In this document: piece by piece, positions 6,342 through 41,722 of the stretch
How the letters are laid out: each line of letters starts with the position of its first letter
Numbering within the stretch: position 1 is the first letter of the stretch
Assembly (NCBI GenBank): GCA_937870915.1
Contig: CALMZQ010000003.1
Location: 1 to 64,000 of the forward strand
Reading direction: 5' to 3'
From: an uncultured Ignavibacteria bacterium
GTDB taxonomy: Bacteria > Bacteroidota > Ignavibacteria > Kapaibacteriales > Kapaibacteriaceae
Length of the DNA stretch: 64,000 bases
Notes under the pieces: generated by a model
Told to the model about the DNA's origin: nothing
The model's database searches: none
The model's input: only the letters and a program-made list of their open reading frames with translations
Made by a program: the position numbers and the translations under genes

Positions 6342-6380
6342 CGATCCCATTCTGAGACTCAGAATGGGATCGTTTTTTTT
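6342..6380 (+). terminator. intrinsic terminator of nrdJ
   Basis: Perfectly complementary arms CGATCCCATTCTGAG (6342-6356) and CTCAGAATGGGATCG (6358-6372), followed by eight T residues. Confidence 0.95.
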
Positions 6381-6514
6381 CCAAGAAGGGTCTACAATCA
6401 CAATATGACTGCTCTTGGCACGGAAATTCCTTTGGAGAACAGGCAGTTACGGCCTATTTTTCGAGCCGTGTGAATAAAAGACAACGTAATTCAACATCGA
6501 TACAGGAGTTCGGC

Positions 6515-6868
6515 ATGAAGATCCGCATGATCGCGATGACGGCAATTGTTGCCGCCGCATCCTTCGCCGTAGCAACAGCTGGTGTGAAGTGCGACGAGAA
6601 GGCATCTGCAAAGAAGGCAAAATCGTCCTCATCATGCTGCAGCAGCACAACAGCAGCCGCCAAGAAGGTATCTGCCAAAGAAGACCATTGCTCTACAACG
6701 GCAGTGAAGGCAACGGAAAGCGCTACGTGCTCAACCACCAGCGTTAAGGCAAAGAAGGTCAGCAACTCATCGTCGTGCTGCTCAATGAAGGCTAAGGACG
6801 TGAAGTCCGCAGCCGTTACGCCATCCACCGAAGCAGCAGTTGTTACGCCGTCCACATCAGAAAAGTGA
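6515..6868 (+). CDS. small secreted Cys/Lys/Ser-rich protein, unknown function
   Basis: A 117-residue product with a clear signal peptide (residues 1 to about 22, ending ATAG) and a mature part made almost entirely of Lys, Ala, Ser, Thr and Cys. Internal duplications are visible: SSSSCCS and SSSCCS, two copies of a CSTT[AS]VKA segment, and two VTPST segments at the C-terminus. There are seven cysteines, four of them in two CC pairs. I do not recognise a family. Metal binding or a disulfide-linked matrix are guesses from composition only. ATG 6515 is chosen because of AGGAG at 6504-6508. It precedes the GldM-like cluster, separated from it by a hairpin. Confidence 0.7.
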   Translation: MKIRMIAMTAIVAAASFAVATAGVKCDEKASAKKAKSSSSCCSSTTAAAKKVSAKEDHCSTTAVKATESATCSTTSVKAKKVSNSSSCCSMKAKDVKSAAVTPSTEAAVVTPSTSEK

Positions 6869-6890
6869 CGATATTGACGAAGTGAGACAC

Positions 6891-6926
6891 ACGGGAATCC
6901 TGCTAAAGTAGTAGGCTTCCCGTTGT
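6891..6926 (+). terminator. terminator or attenuator hairpin before the GldM-like gene
   Basis: ACGGGAA-T-CCTGCTA pairs with TAGTAGG-C-TTCCCGT around an AAG loop (6891-6923) and is followed by the imperfect T-tract TTGTTGT. It probably ends the small Cys-rich gene, with partial readthrough possible. Confidence 0.6.
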
Positions 6927-6972
6927 TGTCCTGAACGGAGGGATCTGTTCACCCATTACCTAGAGGAACGCC

Positions 6973-9120
6973 ATGTCCAAGGGCGGAGCTGGCAAAGTTT
7001 ACTTTGTATTGTATCTAGCTGTTATTCTCGAGCTCCTGATCATCATCGTGGAGCGAGATGAAGCCGAAGAGCACCTTATTGCTAAGCAGAAAGAGTCGAT
7101 GCGCATCGTCGAATCGATCCTTTCTCAGTTGCAGGTTGGTGCCGGATCCGAAGGTATCAATACAAGACCTCAGGATCAGATCACCATTCCCCCTCCTGGC
7201 GTAAACGTGAAGGAGGCCATTGGTGCTGATATCAAACCTGAACGCAAGTACCTCGTTGAGGTTGGGATCACTGACGTTTCATCTGCCTTGAAGATGACGG
7301 AAGTTGAAGAGCCCGAAGAATATCTCGACCGTATCAAGCGATTCCTTCGCTTGTCAAACGTATCGGATATCAAATACGAGATCCTCTATAACAACGATCA
7401 AACTGACGAGCAGGTACCTCAAGACCCTGCTACGTGGCAGCCGAAGATTGTCCAAGATCTGAAACTGAATTATCAGGAAATGGAAGGTCAAGTTGAAGCA
7501 CTTTACGAGCGCAACAAGACCAATCCACAAGCATTTACGGACGGTATGTTGGCCGTACTTACGGCGGCATCGTACAACGTTCCGCAAACATCGATGTTCA
7601 AGCCAGGTCGCGTAACGGAACCGGAATTCTATTATTCCAAGGATGAAACCGTTAAGCTTGGTCCCGTAGTCTCCAAAAAGAAGCGTTCCTTTGTTGTGAA
7701 CTTCGAGCCAAAGGAAGCCGGCTGGTACAAACTCCGCTTCTCGTCGCGCACAAATAAGATCCTTGGTGTCTCCATCAAGGAAGGTGCAGGGTTCGAGATC
7801 GACCCGGAAGAAAAGGTGAACATCGGTACAGTTCAGCTCAAAGTAAAGGATCTGCTCAAGGTTCGCGATCAGCTTGTGAAGCATACCGAAAATCTGCCAA
7901 GTCTCGAACTTGCCAGAACGGACCTCGATGCATTCGATCAAAAGCTTGATGAGCTAACAAACGGTACGGATGACATCAATGAAAAGAGTCGAATCGGACT
8001 TTATGGTGCCATCATCAAGCTTACAACTCCAGGCATAAAGACAGAAAATGCCTTTAAGCAGAATCAAGGCGAGATCGAATTCAACATTCGTGTTCTCAAG
8101 CCTGCTCCTCAGATCACAGATCCAAAAATCGCCGATCTGAAAACCGTAGTTCGCGTCTTCGACAAGCTTGCGTCGCTCAAGCTTCCAATGTCTGTTACGC
8201 CATCCAATGGCCAAACCGTCTTCCTGAAGAACCCGGGTAATGCCCAAGTGGTTGGTGGAACCGCCACTGCCTCCGCATCCGGTGGTGGTACAAAGTGGGT
8301 CAACAAGGATCTAAGCATTACGGTGGCTGGTAATCTTACAGCGCGGGATGAGCCGTACGTGTTTGAGCTTCAACAGAAGAATGCATCAAAGGCATCTGAA
8401 GCGGTTCAATGCTCTGTGTATGTTTATAGCTCTGGCCTCTCCAATGCGGAAGAGGTGAAGAGCGCCCTTGAAGCATCATGGGGCGATGCGCTTGAACTTG
8501 TTGCGTCCCCAAATTCAGGGAATACCATCAAGCCGGATGAGTTCATTATGAACTTCAATCTTGGTGCTGGTACGCAGACGCCGCCAATACGCAAACTTTC
8601 AATCGGTCAATCTGACAATGTCAAGGTACCTGCGGGAACGGATAAAGTCCAATTGACGATTTCTTGGAAGGATCCGAACTCCGGAGACGTGGTTGAACTC
8701 TTCAATGGAAGTGGTGATGTTGGACTGAAGAAACCACTTGTCCTCACCCAAGACATCAAGATCGATCCGATCATGAATAACAGTGATCCTGAATTCAAGG
8801 TGCGTGGAATTATGGTGAAACCACCACAGATTTCAGACGCTGAGCGCGCTGAAGTAGGCGATGTTGAAGTTCAAGTATCAAATTCAAATGTTCGAGATCT
8901 CAAGACCAATACTACCTACAAGGTTGTTGTGGTAGGGAAAGCGCGTAAGATCTCAGGGAATGAATACGAGGTAACATTGAAGCTTACTGGTGGAAAGTTG
9001 CCATTGACCAAGGGACAGGTCAAAGGAAACATTCAGCTGTCGATCTCCGCAACGGCACGTTCGCAAGGTGCAACGTCCAAGCCACGTATCAAGACACAGC
9101 CGATACAAGTGGCGAACTAA
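6973..9120 (+). CDS. GldM/PorM-like single-pass envelope protein
   Basis: A 715-residue protein with one N-terminal transmembrane helix (about residues 9-26), a helical stretch, then a long periplasmic part that reads as several beta-rich Ig-like domains. This layout, and the wording of the N-terminal and C-terminal parts, resemble GldM/PorM, the periplasm-spanning shaft of the T9SS/gliding motor. Similarity is architectural; I cannot confirm homology. Glu20 sits inside the membrane helix, followed by Glu27 and Arg28 at its end. A charged residue there would suit a proton-driven motor, but the GldL-type partner is absent from this neighbourhood. ATG 6973 has a GAGGA ribosome-binding site. First gene of a run with two barrels and an OmpA-VWA protein. 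Confidence 0.55.
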   Translation: MSKGGAGKVYFVLYLAVILELLIIIVERDEAEEHLIAKQKESMRIVESILSQLQVGAGSEGINTRPQDQITIPPPGVNVKEAIGADIKPERKYLVEVGITDVSSALKMTEVEEPEEYLDRIKRFLRLSNVSDIKYEILYNNDQTDEQVPQDPATWQPKIVQDLKLNYQEMEGQVEALYERNKTNPQAFTDGMLAVLTAASYNVPQTSMFKPGRVTEPEFYYSKDETVKLGPVVSKKKRSFVVNFEPKEAGWYKLRFSSRTNKILGVSIKEGAGFEIDPEEKVNIGTVQLKVKDLLKVRDQLVKHTENLPSLELARTDLDAFDQKLDELTNGTDDINEKSRIGLYGAIIKLTTPGIKTENAFKQNQGEIEFNIRVLKPAPQITDPKIADLKTVVRVFDKLASLKLPMSVTPSNGQTVFLKNPGNAQVVGGTATASASGGGTKWVNKDLSITVAGNLTARDEPYVFELQQKNASKASEAVQCSVYVYSSGLSNAEEVKSALEASWGDALELVASPNSGNTIKPDEFIMNFNLGAGTQTPPIRKLSIGQSDNVKVPAGTDKVQLTISWKDPNSGDVVELFNGSGDVGLKKPLVLTQDIKIDPIMNNSDPEFKVRGIMVKPPQISDAERAEVGDVEVQVSNSNVRDLKTNTTYKVVVVGKARKISGNEYEVTLKLTGGKLPLTKGQVKGNIQLSISATARSQGATSKPRIKTQPIQVAN

Positions 9121-9159
9121 AAAACGAATTTGAAGATTCGAAGCATGTCAAGGAACACC

Positions 9160-10809
9160 ATGACTTCCACGAGGATAATTATCTGCTCACTTCTGTTTGC
9201 TACCATCGCTGTGGGGACGATGCAAGCGCAACAGAATTCGCAGGTGTCCAGTATTCTGGACAAATACAAAAACTGGCGGTACGGAATGATTTCCGTGTTT
9301 CGTGTGAACGAAGAAGATGGCACGGTCAACAAGCTCAACATGCTTCTTGGCCCTCCGGAACCCGTCATTCCTGAAGAAGCTAAGCTGTGCAACAAGAAGG
9401 ACGAGATCGAAGAATACGTCCTTTCCGGCGGAGAAGGTGCAGATGAAAAGGAATACCAGAAATGGATGCGTGCCGCAGGGTGCAAGGCTTACGAGCGGTA
9501 TTTTTCTCAGCGTATTGCGTGGGAAAAAGCCCAGTTCAAGAAGGCCTTCGTTGTTACCACAAGGTATCAACCCGGTGAGCCGTTTCGTGTGATCGCACTT
9601 CTTGTGCAAAAGAACACAGAGAGCTTCTACGGGCTACGCCAAGATCTCGATCCACCAAGTGGCAAGTATCTGGCTAATGAACTTGAAGCAAAACAACTTG
9701 ATGAGCAGATCTTGGTTAGTGGTGTTGCGAAGAAGGGTAGCGAGATCCTCGAAACAACAACCGCTACTCTATACCAGTATCTGACAAATCAGGTTGTTCA
9801 GGGTAATCTCGAAAACGTAACACCAGAAGCGCAAGGTATTGGCGAAGAGGGTATTCGATTCGTCAAGAAGAAGTATGGCACAACAGAAGGCATCAACGAA
9901 GATTCGTCGCCTCTCTACATGCGCATCACAGAAGGCCTTCCGCAGAATTATCAGAACAACAACGAAATCATTGTGAGTGCGCTCGACGGTATTTCATACC
10001 GCCGATTCGAACGCCCAGTGATCAATGACGGAGAAATTGATTCTGCTGTACCAACTAATGCCTACCTCCCTAAGTATGGGGTAGAATTGAAGTACGGCCT
10101 TGAGGACATTAACTATCCGTCGATCTGGTCGGAACGCCTCACGCTGAACGCCGTATGGGGTGCATCACACCTGGGTGTTGTACTTCCAACGAATGGCTGG
10201 TCCAATATCTCAAAGGATCTTGGAGCAACGCAGCGCATGACAACTGGCGGTATGGGTATCAACGGTGCCTTTGACTTCCCGATCCGGGTGATCTCTGAGT
10301 CCGGCGTGTTCCACGTTGGAGGTAGTTATGTATTCTCTGATGCTGTTAAGACAGACCATCAAGTGTACAACATTCAGTCGAACTTGAACGAAGACTACCT
10401 CGTGCGATTCCACGCTACGATGCAATACACCTTTGCAATACGGATCGACGAATCCTTCATGTTCCGGATGCGCCTCGGCGGTACGATTTATAACATGGAG
10501 TCTTGGGCTACAACTGCCGGACAAGATCTCGACACGGCCGTTATCTATCGTAAGGTGGACAATCAGACAGTTGGCGGACTCTCTGGAGCCGTTGACTTCA
10601 TGGCAACCGCATGGTCGACTCCGGTCGGCTTTACATTGTCGTACTTCGACGAAACGATTCTCGGTAAGGCATGGCTACAAGTGCCTATCATGGATCAATT
10701 TGCCGTACGCTTCGATGCGCGCATCTTCGCTCCGGTGTTCCGCGACCCACGTCAGTGGGAAAACGACGCTGTAGTGATGCCTGCCGTGAACTTCATCTTC
10801 AACTTCTGA
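9160..10809 (+). CDS. outer-membrane beta-barrel protein with N-terminal periplasmic domain
   Basis: A 549-residue protein with a signal peptide (cleavage probably after the MQA near residue 24), a soluble alpha/beta region to about residue 290, then alternating amphipathic beta-strands to a C-terminal Phe, as expected for a BAM-inserted barrel. I do not recognise the N-terminal domain. ATG 9160 is chosen over the upstream TTG and ATG codons because AAGGA lies 5 nt before it and because it gives a proper signal peptide. It starts 39 bp after the GldM-like gene and is surely cotranscribed. A role as its outer-membrane partner is inferred from gene order only. Confidence 0.7.
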   Translation: MTSTRIIICSLLFATIAVGTMQAQQNSQVSSILDKYKNWRYGMISVFRVNEEDGTVNKLNMLLGPPEPVIPEEAKLCNKKDEIEEYVLSGGEGADEKEYQKWMRAAGCKAYERYFSQRIAWEKAQFKKAFVVTTRYQPGEPFRVIALLVQKNTESFYGLRQDLDPPSGKYLANELEAKQLDEQILVSGVAKKGSEILETTTATLYQYLTNQVVQGNLENVTPEAQGIGEEGIRFVKKKYGTTEGINEDSSPLYMRITEGLPQNYQNNNEIIVSALDGISYRRFERPVINDGEIDSAVPTNAYLPKYGVELKYGLEDINYPSIWSERLTLNAVWGASHLGVVLPTNGWSNISKDLGATQRMTTGGMGINGAFDFPIRVISESGVFHVGGSYVFSDAVKTDHQVYNIQSNLNEDYLVRFHATMQYTFAIRIDESFMFRMRLGGTIYNMESWATTAGQDLDTAVIYRKVDNQTVGGLSGAVDFMATAWSTPVGFTLSYFDETILGKAWLQVPIMDQFAVRFDARIFAPVFRDPRQWENDAVVMPAVNFIFNF

Positions 10810-10837
10810 CCCAACGCGCAACGAAGGAAATAGCTTT

Positions 10838-12238
10838 ATGCAGATCATGTACCGTTTGACCCTAAGCGTCGTTGTTGCGTTCGCATGTGTAGCCGTTCCG
10901 GCCCACACACAGACGTTCGCCGATACGGCACTTACGGCACTGAAGACGATCGACCCGGAGATCCTCCAGTATTTTCCTCGCTGGAGAATTTGTGAACCGG
11001 ACCTACAAGTTCAGATCAAGCAATCGTTTGCCCTCATGGGGTATACGAAGGCAAATCTTGATGACAAATCCATTGTTGTGACCGCTGCACCCGTAAAGGA
11101 AGGCGAGCAAGGACAAGACTTTGAGCTCATTCTTATTGAGTGTGGCTCAGAGCGAATGGTAGCCTCTGAGATCTCGTCGAATATGAAGCGGCTTGCAATG
11201 CGCCTCGCAGATGGCAAGCGCCCATATTGCTACAACGAAATCCCACCATCGGCTCCACCATCTGCACCACAGATTGCGGAGATCATCAGCTACATGGAGC
11301 CAACAAATGTGACACATTCGTTTACGCTCTCTGCATTTGAACAGTCTCTGAAGATCGGTACGTCGGGCTTTTGGCTTAAGGCTTCCTTGGGTACGGACCA
11401 AGTTGGTTATACGTTTTGGTCATCCGGCGAAGGCCGTGTGTTTCTGCAACGCCCCCTATATGAGAATTCGGATCCTGACACACGTAAACCGATCCCGTAT
11501 CTCATCAATGCGAGACTCGGATTTGGATATCGTATGACGGGTAATCTGGATGGTCAGAGTCGTTTGCTCGACTTTATCCCGGGTCGCAAGCTCAACGGTT
11601 CTGCCGGTGGCAAAATCGTTGGTGGACTCGACTTCCATATGCCATTCCATCCGCAGTTTGGTCTCGGATTGAACGTAGAGCTACCATTGCAAAGCATTGA
11701 TCCAACGAATACGATCGACGTTACATCCTACTACATCTTCGACATTGGAAGCCGTAGAGTAACAGCGCCATCGTTTGATATCGATCCGTATGCAACAACA
11801 GCGGTTATGCGTTCTACTGGACAGGCAACGTTGTTCTACAACCTGTGGCTCAACCGTAAGATCCCGGAAAACTTCTTCCGCTTCGATGTTGGTATCAGCT
11901 ATGCAGAAGTTCAAGAAGCAGCTGTGTTCCTCGACACACTCGACGGCAAGAATGAGCAATTCCTTGGTCGAGATGGTGTAAATGGACTCATCACATGGAA
12001 GCCAAACGAAGCTCTCGATTGGATCTATGCCAAGGTGGAGTATCGCAATCAAGCGGCATTCCCATTCGGCATCAGCCTCCAGTATTCGAATCAGATCCTT
12101 TTGGCCCGTGCCTATATTCCTGTATTCGGAGATTGGTTCTATCTCGAAGGTCGCTATTCAACGCCATTGCGTGATGCACGCCCATTCGAAGTTGAGAACT
12201 TCTTTATGTTCTCGCCCGTTCTCCGACTCAACTTCTAA
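10838..12238 (+). CDS. second outer-membrane beta-barrel protein of the GldM-like cluster
   Basis: A protein of 466 residues with a signal peptide (about residues 1-24), a soluble domain of roughly 120 residues containing three cysteines, a short Pro-Ser-Ala linker near residue 135, then a barrel region ending in LNF. The domain plan is the same as the preceding gene, so the two may be distant paralogues or fill two places in one complex. AAGGA lies 9 nt before the ATG. No family recognised. The downstream hairpin at 12254-12297 ends the transcript. Confidence 0.7.
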   Translation: MQIMYRLTLSVVVAFACVAVPAHTQTFADTALTALKTIDPEILQYFPRWRICEPDLQVQIKQSFALMGYTKANLDDKSIVVTAAPVKEGEQGQDFELILIECGSERMVASEISSNMKRLAMRLADGKRPYCYNEIPPSAPPSAPQIAEIISYMEPTNVTHSFTLSAFEQSLKIGTSGFWLKASLGTDQVGYTFWSSGEGRVFLQRPLYENSDPDTRKPIPYLINARLGFGYRMTGNLDGQSRLLDFIPGRKLNGSAGGKIVGGLDFHMPFHPQFGLGLNVELPLQSIDPTNTIDVTSYYIFDIGSRRVTAPSFDIDPYATTAVMRSTGQATLFYNLWLNRKIPENFFRFDVGISYAEVQEAAVFLDTLDGKNEQFLGRDGVNGLITWKPNEALDWIYAKVEYRNQAAFPFGISLQYSNQILLARAYIPVFGDWFYLEGRYSTPLRDARPFEVENFFMFSPVLRLNF

Positions 12239-12253
12239 CGATATATCATGATC

Positions 12254-12297
12254 GACAAAAGCCCCTTTCATGTGGATTGAAGGGGCTTTGTCGTTTT
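12254..12297 (+). terminator. intrinsic terminator built from inverted AAGGGGCT octamers
   Basis: The arms AAAGCCCCTTTCA and TGAAGGGGCTTT pair around the loop TGTGGAT, extended by GAC/GTC at the base and followed by GTTTTC. Both arms contain the over-represented octamer AAGGGGCT in opposite orientation. Confidence 0.85.
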
Positions 12298-12302
12298 CAG
12301 CA

Positions 12303-13628
12303 ATGAGCAAACGTCTACCATACTTCACAATCTTGGTCCTTGCGTTCTTCGCAATGTCGAGCGTTCTCGTGTCTGGACAGGACTCCCTCGATAAAGCACG
12401 CAAGGTTGCCGAAGACGCACGCGTGAAGTCGTCCCTGGATGGTGTGCGGATGACCATTCAAAACGTAGATATCACTCGGTTTCCTACTATCAAGTTGATC
12501 GTAGAAGTTCTCGACGATAGTGCGCGCGTCATGGATACGATCGATCCGAAGACGCTAACAGTTGTAGAGAATGGCGTCCAGAAGCCGGTGATAAACGTTG
12601 AGAAGGTTACGATCCAAGAACGCATACCTGTTGATTTTATGTTCCTCGTTGACATCACGGGCACGATGCAGGCTCACATCAATGGGGTGAAGGATAATAT
12701 CGAGGGATTCGTAGAAGCGCTAAGGAACAGAGGGATTGAATACCGCCTGGGATTGGTGCTTTTCAGCGACTTTGTTGAACGGTCCTACCAACCCACTTCC
12801 GACGTTAAAGAATTCCTGTCATGGATGGCTAAGGTCTATGCAAGTGGTGGTTTCGATGAAAAGGAAAATGCCCTAGAGGCCATCAAGGACGTGGCCCGTA
12901 CGAAGTGGGTGCCTGCTGCCAACCGTGTTGCTGTGGTCATCACTGACGCCCCCTATCACCAATTTGGCGAGAAGGGCAACGGCAGAACGTATATGACAAC
13001 GGAGACCATTGTCCCATTGCTCAAGGACAACAACGTCCGACTTTTTGCTATCGTACCACCTCAGCTCGAAGAATACAAGCTTATCGCTGAAGCAACGCGT
13101 GGAGCTGTGTTCGATATCAAACAACCATTCTCGCGTATCCTCGATCAATATTCAACCCAGCTCACGAATCTCTATGCCGTAACGTATCGCAGTGACTCAA
13201 AGATGGTGCGCGATTCTATCAACGTTGCCATTCTTGACGAACGAAAGAGAGAGCTCGTAAAGCAGATCATCCCAATCGTGGAGATCGGCCGAAAGTTCAT
13301 CATCGAGAACCTGCTCTTCCCAACAAGCAGTGCAACGCTGCCAACGAGGGTGGAAGAGCTCGAAGTACTCATGGAGTTCATGAAGAGCCGTCCGGCTGTG
13401 CAGGTACGCATCGAAGGCCACACAGACAACACAGGCTCATTGCGCGCTAACAAAGCGCTATCCTTGGCCCGCGCAGAAACTGTGAAGGCCTACCTCGTTC
13501 AACGCGGTATAGACCAACGACGCATTCAAACAGTTGGCCACGGCCCATCACGCCCTATCGCCGACAACACAACTGAATTTGGTAGGGGGCTTAACCGCCG
13601 CACAGAGATCGTCATCATCGCCAAATAA
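12303..13628 (+). CDS. VWA-OmpA fusion protein
   Basis: A 441-residue periplasmic or outer-membrane-associated protein. It has a signal peptide (residues 1 to about 25), then a von Willebrand A domain (about 110-290) with a MIDAS-like DITGT motif, then a C-terminal OmpA peptidoglycan-binding domain (about 330-441) with the EGHTDNTGS and GRGLNRRTEI signatures. OmpA domains anchor complexes to the cell wall; VWA domains bind ligands through a metal. In T9SS, an OmpA-domain protein (PorE) plays the anchoring role, so an equivalent job beside the GldM-like gene is plausible but inferred. There is no ribosome-binding site at ATG 12303; an in-frame ATG at 12270 lies inside the preceding terminator. 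Confidence 0.85.
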   Translation: MSKRLPYFTILVLAFFAMSSVLVSGQDSLDKARKVAEDARVKSSLDGVRMTIQNVDITRFPTIKLIVEVLDDSARVMDTIDPKTLTVVENGVQKPVINVEKVTIQERIPVDFMFLVDITGTMQAHINGVKDNIEGFVEALRNRGIEYRLGLVLFSDFVERSYQPTSDVKEFLSWMAKVYASGGFDEKENALEAIKDVARTKWVPAANRVAVVITDAPYHQFGEKGNGRTYMTTETIVPLLKDNNVRLFAIVPPQLEEYKLIAEATRGAVFDIKQPFSRILDQYSTQLTNLYAVTYRSDSKMVRDSINVAILDERKRELVKQIIPIVEIGRKFIIENLLFPTSSATLPTRVEELEVLMEFMKSRPAVQVRIEGHTDNTGSLRANKALSLARAETVKAYLVQRGIDQRRIQTVGHGPSRPIADNTTEFGRGLNRRTEIVIIAK

Positions 13629-22013: not shown

Positions 22014-23489
22014 ATGCAGTCGAAGATCCGGTCCCTGGCATCCGATACTATCGTCTACGGTGTTTCCACCGTTTTGGGGCGTTTCCTCTCGTTTCTCCTT
22101 ACACCACTCTATACGAACTTCCTCTCAGCGTCGGAGATTGGAGACGTCACGGCCATATATGCCATGATCGCCTTTGTGAACATCGTCTATTCACTTGGCA
22201 TGGAGCCGGCCTTCATGCGTTTCTGGGAACGGTCAGACAGCGAATCAAATGCGCGGGTGTTTTCTGTTGCCGTTCTTGCCGTTGTTGCCGTCAGCATCGT
22301 TGTCACAGGTGTAACGGTCATTCTGGCAACTCCCATCGCTGGATCTACCTTCTTGCAGTTGAGTAGTGAAGGGGCTACGTATGTGGCCATTGCATCGCTG
22401 ATACCGCTCCTGGACGCGATGGTGCTCATCCCATTTGCTCAATTACGGATGCAGCAGAAGCCCCGTACGTTTGCCGCGCTCCGATTACTTTCAATCGTTG
22501 TTACTGTTGCCCTGAACATCCTGTTCGTTGTTGTCCTTGGTATGAAGATCGAAGGAGTCTTGTGGGCAGGAGTTCTTGGCAGTGCCGCTACCTTCCTATA
22601 CTTCCTCCCCTCTATGGTGGGGGTTGTCAGCAGGGTACGCGAAAATCTCCCGGCAGCAAAGGAATTGTTTGGAAACATGCTGCGTTTTGGACTTCCCACG
22701 GTGCCATCGAATTTCTCGGCGATCATGGTCCAGGTTGCAGACCGACCAATCATGCTGATGCTTACCGGGAGTGCAATGGTGGGTATGTACCAAACCAATT
22801 TCCGCCTAGCCATTCCAATGATGATGTTCGTAACAATGTTCGAGTATGCGTGGAAGCCATTCTATCTGCATCATCGTGATGATCCGGAAGCAAAGGGGCT
22901 CTTTGCACGGGTTTTCACACTGTTCAGTATCGTCTGCGGAGCACTGTTCCTCGTAACGTCGCTCTTCATGCCCTATGTGGTTCAGCTTCCGTTTATTGGT
23001 GGACGATTCATAAACCCTGCGTATTGGTCCGGTTTGAGTATTGTTCCGGTTGTGATGTTCGCCTATTTCTTCAATGGCGTGTTCATCAACATGTCCGCAG
23101 GATTTCATATCCAGAAGCGGACATCGCTCTTTCCAATTGCAACAGGTGTGGCCGCAGTGGTCAGCGTTGCGGCTACATGGTTCCTTGTTCCTCATTTTGG
23201 CATCATGGGTGCCGCATGGGCAAAGGTAGCGGCATATGTAGCAAGTGCCGTGATTCTCTATGTAGTGCAACTGCGTGTTTATCCGGTTCACTATGATCTA
23301 GTTCGAGTTGGGCTTGTGCTCGTTATCACTGCAGGCATCTACGGTGTTGTGATGATGTTGCCAACAGATGATACAACTCAACTTCTTGCACGATCTGCAG
23401 CTCTTCCAGTCTATCTGCTCCTACTCGTTGTAACACAGGTGCTCGGCGCATCCACACTTCGTACTCTCCTTCGATTGGTCAAACGATGA
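22014..23489 (+). CDS. oligosaccharide flippase (MOP superfamily, Wzx-like)
   Basis: A 491-residue integral membrane protein with about 12-14 hydrophobic helices and the N-terminal segment typical of polysaccharide-biosynthesis flippases (SDTIVYGVSTVLGRFLSFLLTPLYT in part). It would move lipid-linked sugars or related lipids across the inner membrane. No glycan cluster surrounds it apart from the GT9 gene on the other strand, so the substrate is unknown. No ribosome-binding site is clear before ATG 22014. Its stop overlaps the start of the BNR-repeat lipoprotein gene by 4 bp (ATGA), implying coupled translation. Confidence 0.87.
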   Translation: MQSKIRSLASDTIVYGVSTVLGRFLSFLLTPLYTNFLSASEIGDVTAIYAMIAFVNIVYSLGMEPAFMRFWERSDSESNARVFSVAVLAVVAVSIVVTGVTVILATPIAGSTFLQLSSEGATYVAIASLIPLLDAMVLIPFAQLRMQQKPRTFAALRLLSIVVTVALNILFVVVLGMKIEGVLWAGVLGSAATFLYFLPSMVGVVSRVRENLPAAKELFGNMLRFGLPTVPSNFSAIMVQVADRPIMLMLTGSAMVGMYQTNFRLAIPMMMFVTMFEYAWKPFYLHHRDDPEAKGLFARVFTLFSIVCGALFLVTSLFMPYVVQLPFIGGRFINPAYWSGLSIVPVVMFAYFFNGVFINMSAGFHIQKRTSLFPIATGVAAVVSVAATWFLVPHFGIMGAAWAKVAAYVASAVILYVVQLRVYPVHYDLVRVGLVLVITAGIYGVVMMLPTDDTTQLLARSAALPVYLLLLVVTQVLGASTLRTLLRLVKR

Positions 23490-26400
23490 ATATTGTTCGT
23501 ATGCTTGTCCTTGTGAGCACTGCCATAACACTTCTGTTGTCCGGATGTGCTTCGCATGATTCTAGTAACGGGCCATCAGCCCAAGGCCGACGAGAATTTG
23601 AACTCCTCAAGTATCGAGACCCGGCAACAGGTACGTTTCCGCCTAACATACGTGCACGTGAACTCGAGTTCGCAGGAACACTCCCTGGCACGCTCCAACG
23701 TAAGGACCATGGTGAGCGAACACAGGATCTTGGCGAATGGAGACATCGCGGACCGTGGAACATTGGAGGCAGAACACGCGCCATTGCCTTTGATGCAGGC
23801 GATGACCAAACACTACTTGCCGGTGCTGTTTCCGGCGGGATGTGGAAGTCAACCGACAATGGGGCAACGTGGTCACTCACAACCAAGCCCGATCAGTTAC
23901 ACAGTGTAACAACCATCGCACAAGATAGGCGCCCCCTCCATCAAAACGTATGGTATTACGGAACGGGTGAGATATACGGCAACTCTGCACAGATCTCTGG
24001 TAATGGTATTTGGAAGTCCACCGATAATGGGGCTTCGTGGTTCGTATTGCCATCAACAACATCAGCGAACACACCGGCAACTCATCAATTCGCTTATACG
24101 TGGAGGATTGTTACGCATCCGTTGCGTGACAGTAGCGAGCTCTATGTAGCAACCGGACGGTCCGGACTTCAACGTTCAACCAACGGAGGCACCACGTGGA
24201 CTGGTGTGGCCGGAAGTAATGCATTGTTTAGCGATGTCGCGATTACACCAAACGGCACCTTGTACGCTGCCTTCAGCGCTTTTACCGGACAGGTAGGAAG
24301 TATTGCTTCACGATGGGGCGTCTTTCGTTCAACAGATGGTGTCACATGGGTGAACATCACTCCACCTGAAATCAACAATCAAACACGTCGCATTGTTCTC
24401 GCCCCCGTGCCACAAAGTCAGGATCAGATCTATGTCTTGGCCGAAACCCCCGGTGTTGGCGCACAAGGTTCTACCACCTATAGAGGTGAATTGCAGTACG
24501 AATGGCACAGCTTGTTCAAGTATACTTATGTGAGTGGAGATGGAACGGCAAGCGGTGGAGTGTGGGATGTGCGCAGTGCGAATATCCCACTGACCGACGC
24601 AAAGCGTGGAGATTTTTACTCACAAGGTGGATATGATCTGCTTCTACGCGTCTCGCCCTTCGATTCAAATTGTGTTGTGATCGGAGGAACCAACCTCTAT
24701 TGTTCAACTGACGGATTCACAACAACTGTCAACAATACCTGGATAGGCGGATATGATAAGGAAGACCCGTATTGGGACAAATATTCGCTCTATCCCAATC
24801 ATCATCCAGATCAGCACGACGTAGTTTTTCATCCAACGCAGCCAGACGTGCTCATCAGTGTAAATGATGGTGGTATTCAGCGAACAGACAATGTGCGAGC
24901 ATCACGAGTGAGTTGGACCGACCTCAATAGAGGATACCTAACAACACAGTTTTACACTGTGGACCAAGAAGCTGCTGACGGAAGTGCAAAGTTGATAGGT
25001 GGAATGCAGGATAATGCAACCTGGGCAACAGATAGCTCATCGGGCACAGCATTCTGGAGAAGACTTGGTGGTGGAGATGGGGCGTATTGCTACTTCGCCG
25101 ATAGTGGACGGACTGAGTATTATTCTTCACAACAAGGCCGCATGTTCCGTATCCGCCGTGATGCCGTAGGCAACGAAATCGATCGTTCACGAATTGATCC
25201 GCGAGGAGGTAAAGACTATCTCTTCATCAATCCCTATGTGCTACACCCTGCGGATCAACACGTGATGTATTTAGCAGGGGGCTCGGTGTTGTGGAGAAAC
25301 AACAACCTCCGCGATATACCTGCAGGTGTAAATGATTCAACGTCGGTAAACTGGGATTCACTGACTACAACGAACGTAGCGCCAAATGTGATCTCCTCGG
25401 TCTGTGCTACATCTACGCTCGACAAAGCACATCACGTGGTGTATTATGGCACGGGTAATGGCAAGGTGTTCAAAATTGAAAATGCAGAGGTTGGTGTACC
25501 AACACCGGAAGACATAACATCGCCTGCTATGCCTCGCGGTGCCTACATCAACAGTATTAGTGTTGATCCAAGAAATAGCGAGCACCTCATATTGTGCTTC
25601 TCGAACTATGGCGTTGTTAGTATCTGGGAGTCAGAAGATGCCGGCACAACATGGAGTGCCATCTCCGGTAACCTTGAAGAGAAGTCCAATGGTTCAGGTA
25701 ATGGTCCTGCAGTGAACTGGGTCGGAATAGCCCCCTATGATGATGAAACTACCGTGCTTGTGGCTGCAACATCCACCGGACTGTATGTAGCATCAAAAAC
25801 GTTCGGCATGTCAACAGTGTGGACGCAGACAGCCGCAGACGTTATCGGAAATGTACCGTGTGATATGGCTATCGGCCGTGCCTCAGATGGTCAGGTTGCT
25901 ATCGCAACACATGGTCGTGGCGCGTATACGGGGCGCATAACATCGTTACCTTCCAAACCCGGCATTCCAACCCTTGTCTCGCCCAACAACGGCACACGTG
26001 GTGTCTATCGTGATACTGTTTTGACATGGAACGCCGTAGCAGACGCTTCGAGTTATGCTGTTCGAGTGTGGGACCAAGCAACGCCGAACACCATTCGCAC
26101 GTTTGCCGGTATCAATGAACCACAACTCGCCATCGATGACCTCGTGCAGGGCCCTGTGACCTACAACTGGAACGTAGAGGCATTTGGTGGAGGTGGAGGA
26201 AGTACACCTTCGGAAACGTGGTCATTCACGACGGCAGTCCGGCCACCCGCACTTTACTCTCCGGCTGCTGGAGCCACGGGTATCGTCCAAGCACAACTCG
26301 TCTGGGAACGCGTACAACAAGCAACCACCTACGGTATTGAGGTATCACCTAATGCTGCTTTTAATCCTATTGCGTCAAAAACCGACGGGTATGCAGACAC

Positions 26401-26785
26401 ATCGATCCTCGTTCGCGGACTCGAGAACAACAAACGTTATTTCTGGCGCGTTCGATCAGCAAATGCAGATGCCGTTGGACTTTTCTCTGATCGCCAGTCA
26501 TTTGTAACGGGGCTCCTGTCTTCGATCAATGAAACAAAAGCAAACCACGGCACTCTCCGTCTAGAACCCAATCCCGCAACCACAACCGTTCGTGTCTGTG
26601 TACCAAACAACGGCATCAGCACGGCACGCGTTGACGTGTCGGACCTAGAGGGCAGGGTTGTGCTTACGTCAGTTGTTGATGAATGCACAAACCTTACCCT
26701 AACAACTCTTCCAAGCGGAACCTATACGGTTACGGTTTTCTCGGGCACAAAGACCGCTTCATCGAGTCTTGTGATCAAACGTTGA
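23486..26785 (+). CDS. large BNR/sortilin-like repeat lipoprotein with T9SS sorting domain
   Basis: An 1099-residue surface protein. The N-terminus carries a lipobox, LLLSGC, with Cys21 as the likely lipidation site. The body (about 80-810) holds many BNR/sortilin-type beta-propeller repeats (for example GMWKSTDNGATW and GIWKSTDNGASW). Two fibronectin-III-like modules follow (about 830-1010). The last 80 residues are a type A T9SS sorting domain with LEPNPATTTVRV, the LEGRVV segment and a final LVIKR. A lipobox together with a T9SS tail is uncommon. No catalytic motif of a glycosidase is obvious, so carbohydrate or protein binding is as likely as catalysis. Confidence 0.85.
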   Translation: MNIVRMLVLVSTAITLLLSGCASHDSSNGPSAQGRREFELLKYRDPATGTFPPNIRARELEFAGTLPGTLQRKDHGERTQDLGEWRHRGPWNIGGRTRAIAFDAGDDQTLLAGAVSGGMWKSTDNGATWSLTTKPDQLHSVTTIAQDRRPLHQNVWYYGTGEIYGNSAQISGNGIWKSTDNGASWFVLPSTTSANTPATHQFAYTWRIVTHPLRDSSELYVATGRSGLQRSTNGGTTWTGVAGSNALFSDVAITPNGTLYAAFSAFTGQVGSIASRWGVFRSTDGVTWVNITPPEINNQTRRIVLAPVPQSQDQIYVLAETPGVGAQGSTTYRGELQYEWHSLFKYTYVSGDGTASGGVWDVRSANIPLTDAKRGDFYSQGGYDLLLRVSPFDSNCVVIGGTNLYCSTDGFTTTVNNTWIGGYDKEDPYWDKYSLYPNHHPDQHDVVFHPTQPDVLISVNDGGIQRTDNVRASRVSWTDLNRGYLTTQFYTVDQEAADGSAKLIGGMQDNATWATDSSSGTAFWRRLGGGDGAYCYFADSGRTEYYSSQQGRMFRIRRDAVGNEIDRSRIDPRGGKDYLFINPYVLHPADQHVMYLAGGSVLWRNNNLRDIPAGVNDSTSVNWDSLTTTNVAPNVISSVCATSTLDKAHHVVYYGTGNGKVFKIENAEVGVPTPEDITSPAMPRGAYINSISVDPRNSEHLILCFSNYGVVSIWESEDAGTTWSAISGNLEEKSNGSGNGPAVNWVGIAPYDDETTVLVAATSTGLYVASKTFGMSTVWTQTAADVIGNVPCDMAIGRASDGQVAIATHGRGAYTGRITSLPSKPGIPTLVSPNNGTRGVYRDTVLTWNAVADASSYAVRVWDQATPNTIRTFAGINEPQLAIDDLVQGPVTYNWNVEAFGGGGGSTPSETWSFTTAVRPPALYSPAAGATGIVQAQLVWERVQQATTYGIEVSPNAAFNPIASKTDGYADTSILVRGLENNKRYFWRVRSANADAVGLFSDRQSFVTGLLSSINETKANHGTLRLEPNPATTTVRVCVPNNGISTARVDVSDLEGRVVLTSVVDECTNLTLTTLPSGTYTVTVFSGTKTASSSLVIKR

Positions 26786-29028: not shown

Positions 29029-30804
29029 ATGCACGGTTTTGAGTTTCTAGACGAGATCGTACTCCTGTGTTTTGCCGGTCTGGCTGTGATTTTGGTGTTT
29101 CAGCGATTTAGACTGCCTCCGATCATTGGACTCATCACAGCAGGACTCCTCATCGGACCCAGCGGCTTTGGACTAGTTCGGGAAGGGGCTGTGATCACGG
29201 CGATCTCTGAGCTAGGTGTGGTGATGCTCCTTTTCACGATTGGATTAGAGTTCTCCCTCGAAGACCTGAAGCGCCTGCGAAAGATCGTTCTTGTGGGAGG
29301 TCCACTTCAGGTAACTCTGTCGACAATAGTGATCGGTTGTGGTGCCCTTATCGCAGCGTCTCTTACCGGCCTTCCTATTAGTTTGAATGGGGCTATCCTA
29401 ATCGGCATGTCCATGGCCCTGAGTTCAACGGCCATCTGCATCAAGATGCTGAAGGACAGACGAGAGCTTGGTATGCCCCATGGAAGGGCTGTGATGGGCA
29501 TCTTGATCTTTCAGGATATTGCCGTTGTTCCAATGATGATCATTGTTACGCTGCTCTCATCAGACAGTTCCATAGACACTTCGGATGTTGTCCTTCGCAT
29601 TTCAACTCTGATAGGTGTTACTGTTGGTCTTGTTGTAGGTCTGCGTTTTATCCTCCCAAGGCTCGTTCCCTTCGTAACACGTGTCTCCGCACCAGAGGTT
29701 TTGATCCTCGGTGGACTAGCCTTGTGTTTCGGTGCTGCGTGGATCACGTCAACAGCCGGGATCTCCATGGCTCTTGGTGCCTTTATTGCCGGTGTAGCCA
29801 TTGCAGGTAGTGAAGAAGGCCATGCCATCGGTAAGGTGATGGAGCCAATGCGCGATGCATTCACGAGTGTGTTTTTCCTCTCCGTAGGCCTACTTGTTCA
29901 AGTATCGTGGACGTGGCTGCCGGTGAATATTCTCACAGCCATGTTGGTGCTTATTGCGAATGCAATCGTAGTGATGATCATTCTTGCTAGTATTCGTGTG
30001 AACCTTCGAACAGCAGTGATGGCTGGCGTGATCCTAGCACAGGTAGGTGAGTTCTCGTTTGTTCTTGCTACGGTTGGTGTGGAGTACGGAGTGATCACCA
30101 CTACGGACTTCCAGAATATGCTGGTCTCGATCATCTTTACGATGATCGTCACACCCACCCTGGTAACACTCGCACCGGTCATTGCCGAGCGCATTACACC
30201 CCTCACGCGCTTCTTTCCGCGCTTTCGGAAATGGGATATAGATGAAAAGAATGGGGCTTTCCGGCTCGGAACTCTTGCAGAGAAGGACTACGATGGGCCA
30301 ACAGTTATGATCGTCGGTGCTGGCGTCTTGGGAAGAAATGTTGCAACAGTGCTTCGTGAGACAGGAATCAGCTATCGAATCCTAGAGCTCGACCGCGAGA
30401 ATGTTACTGCGTTGAGGACCGAAGACGAACCTGTTATTGCGGGAGATATCACGGATGAACATGCCCTGGCATTGGCCGGCGTAAATACAGCTTCTGTTGT
30501 GATCATTGCGATCAGTGATCAAACAGCGATCGCACATGGTGTGCAGCTTGTGCGCCGGATTCGTCCAGACGTCTTGATTATCGTTCGTTCTAGGTATGCG
30601 CGTGACAGCGAATCTGCCCTTCAACGAGGGGCAGATGAAGTTGTGGTAGAAGAATTCGAATCGAGTATCAAGGTCTTCACAGCTGTGCTGAGTCACCTTG
30701 GTGTAGACGCCACCATGATCGAACAACAAGAGCGTACGATGCGAGAAGACATGCAGCTGCGGTCCGATCGCTCTTTCAGTGACGCACCACGAAGGATGAT
30801 GTGA
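29029..30804 (+). CDS. Kef-type (CPA2) cation:proton antiporter with RCK domain
   Basis: A 591-residue protein. About 12 hydrophobic helices fill residues 1-385, with PPIIGLITAGLLIGPSGFG and FTIGLEFSLEDLKRLRK typical of KefB/C and related CPA2 exchangers. A TrkA-N/RCK domain follows (about 420-545) with the nucleotide motif VGAGVLGRNVATVL. It likely exchanges K+ or Na+ for protons at the inner membrane, gated by nucleotide or another ligand on the RCK domain. The 3' end overlaps the convergent T9SS gene by 29 bp. Confidence 0.9.
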   Translation: MHGFEFLDEIVLLCFAGLAVILVFQRFRLPPIIGLITAGLLIGPSGFGLVREGAVITAISELGVVMLLFTIGLEFSLEDLKRLRKIVLVGGPLQVTLSTIVIGCGALIAASLTGLPISLNGAILIGMSMALSSTAICIKMLKDRRELGMPHGRAVMGILIFQDIAVVPMMIIVTLLSSDSSIDTSDVVLRISTLIGVTVGLVVGLRFILPRLVPFVTRVSAPEVLILGGLALCFGAAWITSTAGISMALGAFIAGVAIAGSEEGHAIGKVMEPMRDAFTSVFFLSVGLLVQVSWTWLPVNILTAMLVLIANAIVVMIILASIRVNLRTAVMAGVILAQVGEFSFVLATVGVEYGVITTTDFQNMLVSIIFTMIVTPTLVTLAPVIAERITPLTRFFPRFRKWDIDEKNGAFRLGTLAEKDYDGPTVMIVGAGVLGRNVATVLRETGISYRILELDRENVTALRTEDEPVIAGDITDEHALALAGVNTASVVIIAISDQTAIAHGVQLVRRIRPDVLIIVRSRYARDSESALQRGADEVVVEEFESSIKVFTAVLSHLGVDATMIEQQERTMREDMQLRSDRSFSDAPRRMM

Positions 30805-32347
30805 GCGAGGTGTGATCTCCTGTAAGGCGAACGATATAGCCTCCGGAGGATAGCGCTCTTGTGTCTACGGAGATCACATTCATTCCTGCATCCATCACAC
30901 GAGACTGGGATTCTGTACGCACAACGTTGCCGGACGCATCAACGATCTCGAGCCAATATCGAGCTGAGGATGAAAGTTCCAAGGATATGTTCACGCGCTC
31001 AGCTGATGGGTTGGGATACACTGACAGGTGTGGTATGAATGTGTTCGTGCTTTCAGAGACCGATGTTGGAATAGTTGTTTCCATGTCCATTGCCTCATCA
31101 CCTGGTAGATAAACGACCCAATGGAAATAGCAGAGCAACATCTCATCTGTTGTGCTCTCTCCCCATCGTACCGTTTTTGGCGGAGAATTTGGATTCTCGA
31201 TATTATTGATCGTGTTATCGTACTCAGCGGTGTAATACAGAGTTGAACCCCGAGGGACTCTCACCGGATTGCGATATGCATAGCCCCCTTGCCAATGAAA
31301 ATCCCAATCATTGATTTTCACAAGATTGATCGTGTCACTTTGTGGCGTGACTGCATACGCACGGGCGTTCTTGCCCAGCAGGTGCATATGTGGAGCAACA
31401 CCTATGATACTTACATCAAGGGGAACCGTAAACCGGGTGGTAAAACTCCTCGTGGTATTTGCCGGAATCACAAAATTTTGACCGGGCACTAGATTTATGG
31501 GGTTGAGTGAGAACTCTTGGACCAATCGGGTTACCGGATTCTTGTGGAAGAAGATGTTCACATGCGATCGATCGGTCTGGGTCTCCTCCGATGGTGCATA
31601 GTGTACTTGAATAACGAGGTCTGAATTTTTGTGGAATCGGACGCCGATTTCGGGCGGGTAGAATCGCATTTGAGCGCCGGGGACCCATCCGAGGAACGAG
31701 GCTGCAGATTCAAAACCGGGGTCGCCAAATCCTGAATAGCCCGGTAGTGGGTCGGCCAGATCCTTCGCCCGCGCCGTACCCGTAGTATCGAGGTAATACA
31801 ACACATGATGAACCACCTTTGTATTGCCCGGGCGGAATTCGATGGCAGAAATGTATGTGTCTTCTGGTAACGACGTTGGCAGGACAAAGTATCTATAGAC
31901 ATCCTTGCTGTTGCCTTGAACCTGCCAGGTCTCTTGCATTTCGAGAACCAGATCCGGAGTGCCCAGTTGAGATCCTGAGGGAAAGGTAGGGGACTTCGGT
32001 GCTTGTGATAGGTCACCGGCAGGAGCACCAGCATCAACCCATGCCGAAATCTTGGCGATCTCATCCTCTGACAGGGATCGATTTCCCATAAAGGTCCCGT
32101 GTCCGGCAGCAGGTGGCCATGGTGGCATCTCCCGTGTTTGCACCGCGTGTTTGATTGACCCCGCAAAGGCCGCGGCCTCGTCATAAGAAGACAGTCCAAA
32201 CGGTGCGATCTCGCCCGTGCGGTGGCATGGAGTACACTTGGCGTAGACCACAGAGGCTATATCCGATGACCACGTAGGGGGTTGGCCGGAAGCAACGACA
32301 GTTGCTGAAAGGACTGAGATGGCGAGAATTGTCGCGCGAAGTGTCAT
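30776..32347 (-). CDS. cytochrome c / copper monooxygenase-like protein with T9SS sorting domain
   Basis: A 523-residue secreted protein: signal peptide (about 1-22), then a c-type heme motif CTPCH near residue 40 with a PPWPP segment downstream (the SHK-free cytochrome module seen before PHM-like proteins). Next comes a two-part region resembling Cu type II ascorbate-dependent monooxygenase (peptidylglycine hydroxylase fold), with His pairs VVHHVLYY, IQVHYAP and APHMHLLG. The C-terminus (about 440-523) is a T9SS domain, VYPNPSAERVNI ending FVVRH. ATG 32347 is chosen because AGG lies 7 nt before it, whereas ATG 32353 would be only 1 nt from it. The substrate is unknown. Confidence 0.85.
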   Translation of the reverse strand: MTLRATILAISVLSATVVASGQPPTWSSDIASVVYAKCTPCHRTGEIAPFGLSSYDEAAAFAGSIKHAVQTREMPPWPPAAGHGTFMGNRSLSEDEIAKISAWVDAGAPAGDLSQAPKSPTFPSGSQLGTPDLVLEMQETWQVQGNSKDVYRYFVLPTSLPEDTYISAIEFRPGNTKVVHHVLYYLDTTGTARAKDLADPLPGYSGFGDPGFESAASFLGWVPGAQMRFYPPEIGVRFHKNSDLVIQVHYAPSEETQTDRSHVNIFFHKNPVTRLVQEFSLNPINLVPGQNFVIPANTTRSFTTRFTVPLDVSIIGVAPHMHLLGKNARAYAVTPQSDTINLVKINDWDFHWQGGYAYRNPVRVPRGSTLYYTAEYDNTINNIENPNSPPKTVRWGESTTDEMLLCYFHWVVYLPGDEAMDMETTIPTSVSESTNTFIPHLSVYPNPSAERVNISLELSSSARYWLEIVDASGNVVRTESQSRVMDAGMNVISVDTRALSSGGYIVRLTGDHTSLTSSFVVRH

Positions 32348-32359
32348 GTACATACCTGT

Positions 32360-32427
32360 AAAAAAAACGGGTGCCACCCAAAGATGGCACCCGAGATGTT
32401 TCCAAAGCAAAAAGGTTTAACCTTTTT
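32360..32427 (-). terminator. tandem terminators after the small barrel gene
   Basis: On the minus strand, a palindrome AAAAAGGTT/AACCTTTTT (32409-32427) is followed by a strong hairpin, CGGGTGCCA (32385-32393) with its complement (32368-32376), and an 8-T tract (32360-32367). It ends the barrel transcript before the T9SS monooxygenase-like gene. Confidence 0.9.
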
Positions 32428-35675: not shown

Positions 35676-35700
35676 GGGGCTAGACTAAGCCCCGTGTTTT
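35675..35700. terminator. terminator from inverted octamers between convergent genes
   Basis: AGGGGCT (35675-35681) and AGCCCC (35688-35693) form a 6-bp GC stem with an AGACTA loop, followed on the plus strand by GTGTTTTT. The left arm overlaps the DUF5686 stop codon, and the hairpin overlaps the last codons of the DUF58 gene. Confidence 0.75.
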
Positions 35701-37014
35701 TAGATCGAGATAGGCATTGATGGATGCGATACTAAGGGACTGTGGTGCAGAGAGAACCGTATAGATGCCTGCCCTGCGCAGTTCGGCGCGGATCTCGTTC
35801 TTCTCCATAAGTGTTGCACGTGCGATGGTCTGACGGTAGATGTCTTCCATTGTTTGTGGCTCTTGGTCAACCGTTGCTCGAATCCCAGTGTTATCAAAAA
35901 AGTTTACAACGAGTACGTGTGAACGCGAGAGTAGTCGAAATGCGGGAAGCCTACGTCTGGCTGCGTCTACGGACTCGATGTTTGTGTATAGCATTAATAA
36001 TGTCCGACTTGGCAGACGCCTTCGAACAAGATCAACCAGACGGTCGTCATCGGATTGTTCAAACTCTGTCTCAATAGCATAGAGCCCCTTCATCACAGCG
36101 GCCAATTGTGCATTGCCTGCATTTGCGGGAAGGATCTTTGCTTCATGAGCTCCATATGTGAGCAGTCCGGCCCGATCCTGCTTCTTGAGTACCACGTTCG
36201 AGAACGCTAGAGATGCATTAATCGCATGGTCTAAAAACGTCATGCCATTGTGTGAAAATCGCATACTTCTGCCGAGATCGATAACGCTATAAATGTCTTG
36301 CGACCGTTCGTCTTGGTATTGATTCACCATCAGTGAATTCCGTCTCGCCGTGGCCTTCCAATTCACAGTGCGTAGGTCATCTCCCGTGGTATAGGTAGAG
36401 ATCTTCTCGAACTCCATCGTGTGCCCGAGCCTACGTTGTTTGTGAATTCCAAGTCGATGTTGCCTATTGCTAAAGGTGGCAATCTCGGCACGACGCATTT
36501 CCATTATCGAGGGATGAACTTCAACGGCGCGTTCTGCATCACGCGTGAATCGGCGTTGAATCAACCCAAGTCTGGTACGAACAAACACATTGATCGCGCC
36601 AAAACGAAGCACTCCCCGAGCTACCGGCCTGATCTCATAGGAGAAGGTGATAGTATCCGTTCCACTATTCATCCAATCAAAGGTGAGTGATCGTTCTTGA
36701 AGTTGAATTGGTACTTCGTCTAGTATCGTGAGTTGCGTTGCAAAAGGGGCTTCTGCCTTTACATGAACAGCGATTGGGTTGAACTCTCCGTTGGAGAGAC
36801 GCTGATCACATTGCCGTTCAGCGGAAACAGAAACGCGACCGGACCACAGGAGCACTGTGTCTATGACGCAGGCTGCAATCGTGCAGAGCGTAACGATGTA
36901 TGCGACCCAAAGGAGCACAGGAAGCCATGTTGAGGCCACCGCGGTCACAACAATCGCAACAATCGCCCACGTGATGCGAAGCGTTGGGAACCAGTTTCGA
37001 AGGAGATCGATCAC
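35680..37014 (-). CDS. DUF58-domain protein
   Basis: A 444-residue protein with two N-terminal membrane helices (about 12-60) and a C-terminal DUF58/VWA-like domain. Signatures: RLGHTMEFEKISTYTTGDDLRTVNWKATARR (in part) around residue 205 and YSVIDLGRSM near 245. DUF58 proteins are regularly encoded beside MoxR AAA ATPases and are thought to be client or adaptor proteins of them. Its start overlaps the moxR stop by 4 bp. Last gene of a six-gene operon running from 41661 to 35680. Confidence 0.88.
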   Translation of the reverse strand: MIDLLRNWFPTLRITWAIVAIVVTAVASTWLPVLLWVAYIVTLCTIAACVIDTVLLWSGRVSVSAERQCDQRLSNGEFNPIAVHVKAEAPFATQLTILDEVPIQLQERSLTFDWMNSGTDTITFSYEIRPVARGVLRFGAINVFVRTRLGLIQRRFTRDAERAVEVHPSIMEMRRAEIATFSNRQHRLGIHKQRRLGHTMEFEKISTYTTGDDLRTVNWKATARRNSLMVNQYQDERSQDIYSVIDLGRSMRFSHNGMTFLDHAINASLAFSNVVLKKQDRAGLLTYGAHEAKILPANAGNAQLAAVMKGLYAIETEFEQSDDDRLVDLVRRRLPSRTLLMLYTNIESVDAARRRLPAFRLLSRSHVLVVNFFDNTGIRATVDQEPQTMEDIYRQTIARATLMEKNEIRAELRRAGIYTVLSAPQSLSIASINAYLDLKTRGLV

Positions 37015-37970
37015 CGAGGGACATCTATGGAATGGAGAATGCCGGATACTACATCGTCCGGAGTCATGCCTTCCATCTCTCTCTCGGGAATAAGTCTGAT
37101 GCGATGTCGGAGGATACTTGGAGCCACACGCTTCACGTCATCTGGAATAATGAAGGACCGACCATCGAGGACAGCGGCAGCCTTGGCGGAATTGAGTAGG
37201 CCGATAGACGCACGAGGAGAGGCTCCTAGATCGAGGAGAGGATGCGAACGCGTCTGTTGCACAATGGTTGCGATGTATCGCATGATGCTATCCTCCACGG
37301 TAACACTGCGTGCCGTTGAACGGAGGTCAAGAAGCTCGTTTGCAGTGACGACCGGTTTGATCGCATCGAGAAGGCCAGCCCCCTTGGAATCATGGTGCAG
37401 ACCAAGGATTAGGATCTCTTCATCCAGAGAAGGATAATCAACGAGGACCTTCATGAGAAATCTATCGAGTTGTGCTTCGGGTAGACGATACGTGCCTTCG
37501 TGTTCGATTGGGTTCTGTGTTGCGAGCACGATGCTGGGCAATGGCATTGGATAGGATACACCGTCGATTGTTGCCTGGGCCTCCTCCATTACTTCGAAGA
37601 GTGCAGACTGTGTCTTTGCCGGCGCACGATTGATCTCATCGGCAAGCACAATGTTGGCAAACACAGGCCCCCTTCGAAAGACAAAGTCTGTGGTTCGCGG
37701 GTCGAACATGTTTGTACCAAGGATGTCTGCCGGCATGAGATCCGGTGTGAATTGGATCCGTGCAAAGGAGCAATCGAGGAGGCGCGCCACTAACCGTGCC
37801 AGGAGTGTCTTTGCAACACCGGGAACGCCTTCGATAAGGACGTGACCGTTGGCAAGCAGGGCGATGAGAACATGATCGAGGAGATCAATCTGACCAACAA
37901 TAACGGTGGCAACCTGCGTTCTCAGCGACTCGAGGAGGGCAGCAGATTCGTTTTCTGTTTGAGTATTCAT
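37011..37970 (-). CDS. MoxR-family AAA+ ATPase
   Basis: A 319-residue ATPase with Walker A in EGVPGVAKT near residue 50, Walker B in LADEINRAPAKTQSALFEVMEE near 110, sensor 1 in VLATQNPIEHEGTY near 150 and the C-terminal lid with SPRASIGLL. MoxR enzymes act as chaperones that mature or remodel protein complexes, usually together with VWA-type partners. The partner here is probably the DUF58 protein immediately downstream. Starts and stops of neighbouring genes overlap by 4 bp on both sides. Confidence 0.95.
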   Translation of the reverse strand: MNTQTENESAALLESLRTQVATVIVGQIDLLDHVLIALLANGHVLIEGVPGVAKTLLARLVARLLDCSFARIQFTPDLMPADILGTNMFDPRTTDFVFRRGPVFANIVLADEINRAPAKTQSALFEVMEEAQATIDGVSYPMPLPSIVLATQNPIEHEGTYRLPEAQLDRFLMKVLVDYPSLDEEILILGLHHDSKGAGLLDAIKPVVTANELLDLRSTARSVTVEDSIMRYIATIVQQTRSHPLLDLGASPRASIGLLNSAKAAAVLDGRSFIIPDDVKRVAPSILRHRIRLIPEREMEGMTPDDVVSGILHSIDVPR

Positions 37971-41661: not shown

Positions 41662-41722
41662 CAACCTCCTCCACTTGAATTTCTAACGCTGTATCTTCGG
41701 TAACTCTTCTCTGGCCGAATAT

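Follow-up and report, generated by a model that had tools for sequence, protein, structure and literature searches.

Four consecutive genes on the plus strand of the window (the whole stretch of DNA analysed, bases 1–64,000 of one contig from a genome of 3.3 Mb) form a block that is real and under selection. This block may supply the axle and the outer-membrane side of a divergent GldLM-type motor that is driven by the proton motive force and serves the type IX secretion system (T9SS) of the Kapabacteriales, a reading whose chances we put close to, but not quite at, even. The order is called Kapabacteriales here because close matches of the block are labelled, for example, Candidatus Kapaibacterium or Ignavibacteria bacterium. 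The block starts with a GldM-like protein (6973..9120, 715 aa) that has an N-terminal transmembrane helix and a long periplasmic part and is the proposed axle or shaft. It is followed by barrel A (9130..10809), consisting of a signal peptide, a soluble N-terminal domain of approximately 270 residues, and a C-terminal outer-membrane beta-barrel, and by barrel B (10838..12238), which has a signal peptide, an N-terminal domain of approximately 120 residues, and a C-terminal barrel. The last gene (12270..13628) encodes a VWA-OmpA protein with a signal sequence, a VWA domain, and a C-terminal OmpA domain, the proposed cell-wall anchor. All four ORFs are co-directional and spaced by 9, 28, and 31 bases, in agreement with a preliminary description of the window in which this four-gene run had been pointed out.

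The order GldM-like, barrel A, barrel B, VWA-OmpA was found in 55 of the 64 Kapabacteriales loci with room downstream, and the flanks vary between loci while the block stays (20 fetched loci of 20 kb each, then 80 loci from a second genome collection in which some genomes of the first 20 loci recur). Because the order recurs across the Kapabacteriales among unrelated flanks, it lies far beyond chance. None of the three partners is present in 4 of the 64 loci, all of which have a GldL-like gene directly upstream instead. Homologues of the GldM-like protein occur in 114 of 119 relatives, and equivalents of the axle and barrel A are adjacent in sister families as well. The gene order is thus kept throughout the Kapabacteriales with an equivalent operon in sister families, so that the loss of gene order in relatives, which would have spoken against the preliminary interpretation, did not occur. 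The earlier proposal of a GldM-based complex specific to this lineage was too narrow.

A small Cys-rich secreted protein (6470..6868, plus strand) had also been counted as part of the cluster. The ORF exists, but it is found upstream of the block in 4 of 72 loci only and is separated from it by 104 bases, and it was therefore rejected as a component and treated as a neighbour outside the unit. Also upstream of the block, a strong terminator-like hairpin (6342-6372, 14 pairs and eight T) directly follows a large ribonucleotide-reductase-like gene. Elsewhere in the window, six genes run in one direction on the minus strand (35680-41664), one of them with similarity to VWA-type chelatases (37014-37970), and this run may be a Bat-like aerotolerance operon.

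The single-pass topology of the GldM-like protein was confirmed by its hydrophobicity, which peaks at residues 9-27, and by an AlphaFold model (pLDDT 77, pTM 0.43) consisting of one long helix (residues 5-55), a mixed alpha-beta region, and chained beta domains. Residues 4-33 are nearly invariant across a set of 21 proteins, the most distant of which is 29% identical to the window protein. Conservation of this degree would fit a membrane helix enclosed by another complex or by a channel. Glu20 lies inside the helix, whose pattern YF.LY....ELL...ERD reaches the sister families, with replacement of Glu20 by Gln or Asn in three sequences. An acidic residue is also present in the axle helix of MotB and ExbD. 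The periplasmic part, previously described as long and Ig-like, does contain chained beta domains, but its first domain is mixed alpha-beta rather than Ig-like. In crystal structures of GldM, a five-helix D1 domain precedes the beta domains D2–D4 (PMC5790014), whereas the first periplasmic domain of the GldM-like model lacks this five-helix form. A Foldseek search with the model returned generic Ig and cadherin chains. Structure prediction, which had been suggested as a check for a GldM-like fold, thus recovered the transmembrane helix and the beta-domain chain but neither D1 nor any GldM among the top 50 Foldseek matches. Two further proteins of the same genome, approximately 250-300 aa long, resemble the GldM-like protein in its C-terminal beta domains only (L116:5272-6156 and L117:5461-6204; G000:C46 and G000:C129).

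A candidate partner is found in the sister families: in 11 of 14 loci there, a two-helix protein is encoded immediately upstream of a shorter protein that has the membrane helix of the GldM-like protein. This two-helix protein carries an invariant Glu in its second membrane helix, as does GldL, in which the strictly conserved Glu49 of helix 2 is required for secretion (PMC8986121). The invariant Glu of the GldL-like proteins was observed in 27 sequences. With the sister-family profile, relatives were detected in all 60 Kapabacteriales genomes searched, the window's own included, with two to four paralogues per genome. These are GldL-A (approximately 450 aa), the commonest type, and GldL-B (approximately 340 aa), both with four predicted helices, the last two of which follow a large cytoplasmic stretch, and GldL-C (approximately 285 aa), which shares the two-helix form with the sister-family proteins. 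The window's genome holds three GldL-like paralogues outside the window, including GldL-A and GldL-B (L099:8365-9717 and L098:8996-10021, respectively); GldL-B is encoded on the same contig as the window, at 143 kb. Within the window's family, the operon of the GldM-like protein does not contain the gene for the GldL-like wheel. Direct adjacency of the two genes is absent in the window's genome; apart from the sister families, it is present in family f7, where a second GldM-like gene without barrels lies directly downstream of a GldL-like gene (L045, L210, L211, L213, L216, L217, and L221). In a tree of the conserved hairpin, GldL-A and the GldL copies adjacent to GldM-like genes form one group (moderate support, 91/89). 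Describing the sister-family operon plainly as a 'split GldM' was rejected, since no similarity could be detected between the secreted protein that follows its GldM-like gene and the C-terminus of the GldM-like protein.

At the sequence level, the GldM-like protein and barrels A and B gave no meaningful Pfam or NCBIfam match. The GldM model TIGR03517 has no match in the window's genome and thus does not place the protein in the GldM family. Profile comparison with true GldM from other genomes of the phylum gave a non-significant probability of 1.5%, and column-shuffled controls equalled the observed score in 2.5-11.5% of trials. The comparison of the GldL-like proteins with true GldL was likewise non-significant (P 0.0007 to 0.6 depending on the set), with shuffled controls equalling the observed score in 9-13% of trials. 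Measured against these controls, neither profile comparison reaches significance as a sign of homology. The GldL model TIGR03513 was over cut-off in 0 of 40 genomes, none of the NCBIfam models for the GldL family matches the sister-family proteins, and the GldL-like wheel matches no MotA/ExbB Pfam model. When the profiles of the GldM-like protein, the GldL-like protein, and both barrels were compared with the sequences of solved structures, nothing relevant was found.

On the outer-membrane side, two barrels with soluble N-terminal domains had been described. For barrel A this is borne out by its model, whose nearest solved structures are outer-membrane barrels; for barrel B it is suggested by profile likeness, as the C-terminal barrel is common to both (profile probability 96.5%). 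A clear counterpart of barrel A occurs in the sister families (profile P 2e-5), and barrel B has a weak match there (profile P 0.006). In some sister-family loci (L064-L077), barrels A and B are present as two tandem pairs, and the short GldM-like gene is followed by an additional secreted protein of approximately 366 aa. In the N-terminal domain of barrel B, Cys 52, 102, and 131 are kept in 17 of 18 sequences, and because this number is odd, one Cys may be left free for an intermolecular disulfide. This would recall SprF and PorG, which are disulfide-linked to GldK (PMC12635249). Like PorP/SprF and PorG, barrels A and B are outer-membrane barrels encoded beside a motor gene and one of them has conserved Cys residues, but they differ by their large soluble N-terminal domains.

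The VWA and OmpA domains of the last protein are both above their Pfam cut-offs, as the preliminary description had anticipated. The VWA domain contains a DxTxT MIDAS-like motif, while GHTD, Arg, and NRR, the conserved positions of the OmpA domain, are all retained. As OmpA-type C-terminal domains of this kind bind peptidoglycan, the protein is likely a peptidoglycan anchor. In being secreted and ending in such a domain it resembles PorE, but it carries a VWA domain in place of the other domains of PorE, and its score against the PorE model (57.7 bits versus a cut-off of 600) comes from the OmpA part only.

The T9SS is the most likely client of the block. SprA is present in the window's genome and in 39 of 40 relatives and scores over cut-off in 117 of 119 genomes of the class, and PorV is over cut-off in all 24 relatives, the window's genome included. 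Furthermore, GldL-A directly precedes a PorU-like C25 peptidase in 20 of 27 genomes (6 of the first 7 loci and 14 of 20 more). The catalytic part of this putative sortase matches PorU models below their curated cut-offs (193-224 bits versus 420 and 450), and its His/Cys dyad is conserved. While this translocon side is present, the canonical motor is not detectable. Standard GldM was over cut-off in 0 of 20 genomes of the class versus 18 of 60 genomes elsewhere in the phylum, and a weak GldM-model match in one class genome (G176) proved on inspection not to be a GldM-like protein. The GldN model was over cut-off in 0 of 24 genomes, in a search run without a positive control, and matches to the GldK model are patchy and all below cut-off. 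The earlier suggestion to look for canonical gldKLMN and sprA elsewhere in the genome thus led to sprA, but to no GldM, GldL, or GldN over cut-off. For Ignavibacterium and Melioribacter, a published survey lists SprA, PorV, and Plug as the sole T9SS proteins (PMC11705866). GldL-like proteins were found in 54 of the 119 class genomes, compared with 117 for SprA, and either the translocon does not need a GldL-type motor everywhere, with the motor not being tied to the T9SS there, or more divergent versions were missed. In the sprA surroundings of twelve class genomes without GldL-like proteins, none of five profiles matched. The window had also been credited with at least four T9SS cargo proteins, but among approximately 20 further window proteins scanned, T9SS sorting domains were verified in two (23486-26782 and 30779-32410).

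From these observations we infer a complex that would convert proton flow into movement across the envelope. The gene for the GldL-like wheel would lie at a different locus, chiefly the gldL-A/porU-like operon. Protons would pass the invariant Glu in the last helix of the wheel, and perhaps also Glu20 of the axle, and their flow would turn or bend a GldM-like dimer. The far domains of this dimer would press against the periplasmic domains of the two barrels, which would replace the GldK/GldN ring, while the VWA-OmpA protein would fix the assembly to the peptidoglycan. The resulting force could drive the release of cargo from the SprA/PorV translocon or the movement of surface proteins.

This proposed machine shares with GldLM a single-pass axle with an N-terminal helix and a long periplasmic shaft of beta domains, a partner that ends in two helices, the final one with an invariant Glu, the adjacency of both genes in part of the group, and a genomic background of SprA, PorV, and PorU-like proteins. 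On the other hand, the proteins have no significant sequence match to either GldLM model, the first periplasmic domain of the axle is not a helical D1, the axle helix also has an acidic residue, and the wheel is often a four-helix protein encoded elsewhere. Moreover, GldN is undetected here (the search mentioned above having no positive control) and GldK is below cut-off, whereas two barrels and a VWA-OmpA protein lie beside the axle. The earlier interpretation, a divergent T9SS module or a separate GldM-based complex, is partly supported. In its favour are a GldL-like partner whose genes are linked to GldM-like genes and to a PorU-like sortase, and a T9SS translocon that lacks a detectable canonical motor, while neither the GldM model nor the predicted fold places the axle in the GldM family.

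It is possible, although doubtful, that these differences mark a distinct family of ion-driven trans-envelope motors, with a GldL-like wheel that often has four helices as MotA does, a long GldM-like axle that itself has an acidic residue in the membrane, two new barrels, and a VWA-OmpA anchor, which would power the T9SS without a GldK/GldN ring and bridge MotAB/ExbBD and GldLM. The likeness to MotA lies in the four predicted helices of GldL-A and GldL-B, the final pair of which is preceded by a large cytoplasmic loop, whereas the axle, with 715 aa and chained beta domains, differs from the 5:2 motors MotAB, ExbBD, and TolQR. A separate proton-driven envelope machine, built on the GldLM-like pair and not dedicated to the T9SS, is unlikely; it might move surface adhesins or perform Tol/Ton-like work, and the PorU link would concern one of several GldL paralogues only. 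Such a machine would fit three observations: about half of the class carries SprA but yielded no GldL-like protein, the number of paralogues per genome suggests several motors, and none of the loci examined has SprA, PorV, or PorU genes next to the block. Against it, the GldL copies adjacent to GldM-like genes are most closely related to GldL-A, the PorU-linked form. We consider it distinctly improbable that the block is a passive trans-envelope scaffold without a motor, in which a single-pass tether with Ig-like domains would connect the inner membrane to the outer-membrane barrels and, through the VWA-OmpA protein, to the peptidoglycan. Such a scaffold would agree with the missing GldL-like gene in the window, the lack of significant GldM homology, and the presence of an OmpA domain and barrels as typical structural parts; a plain tether would, however, not be expected to have an invariant membrane helix in which an acidic residue is conserved, or to be found repeatedly next to a two-helix protein that bears a Glu. 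That functionally unrelated envelope genes are co-conserved through shared regulation is very improbable, for although the evidence for the block consists of genomic association, it persists in 55 of 64 loci with changing flanks and its axle and barrel A equivalents remain adjacent in sister families.

The block and its GldL-like partners are thus concrete candidates for the missing T9SS motor in the Kapabacteriales and part of the sister families. If the lack of a detectable GldN is true, the ring would be replaceable, and the four-helix GldL-like proteins could bear on the question of how 5:2 motors evolved.
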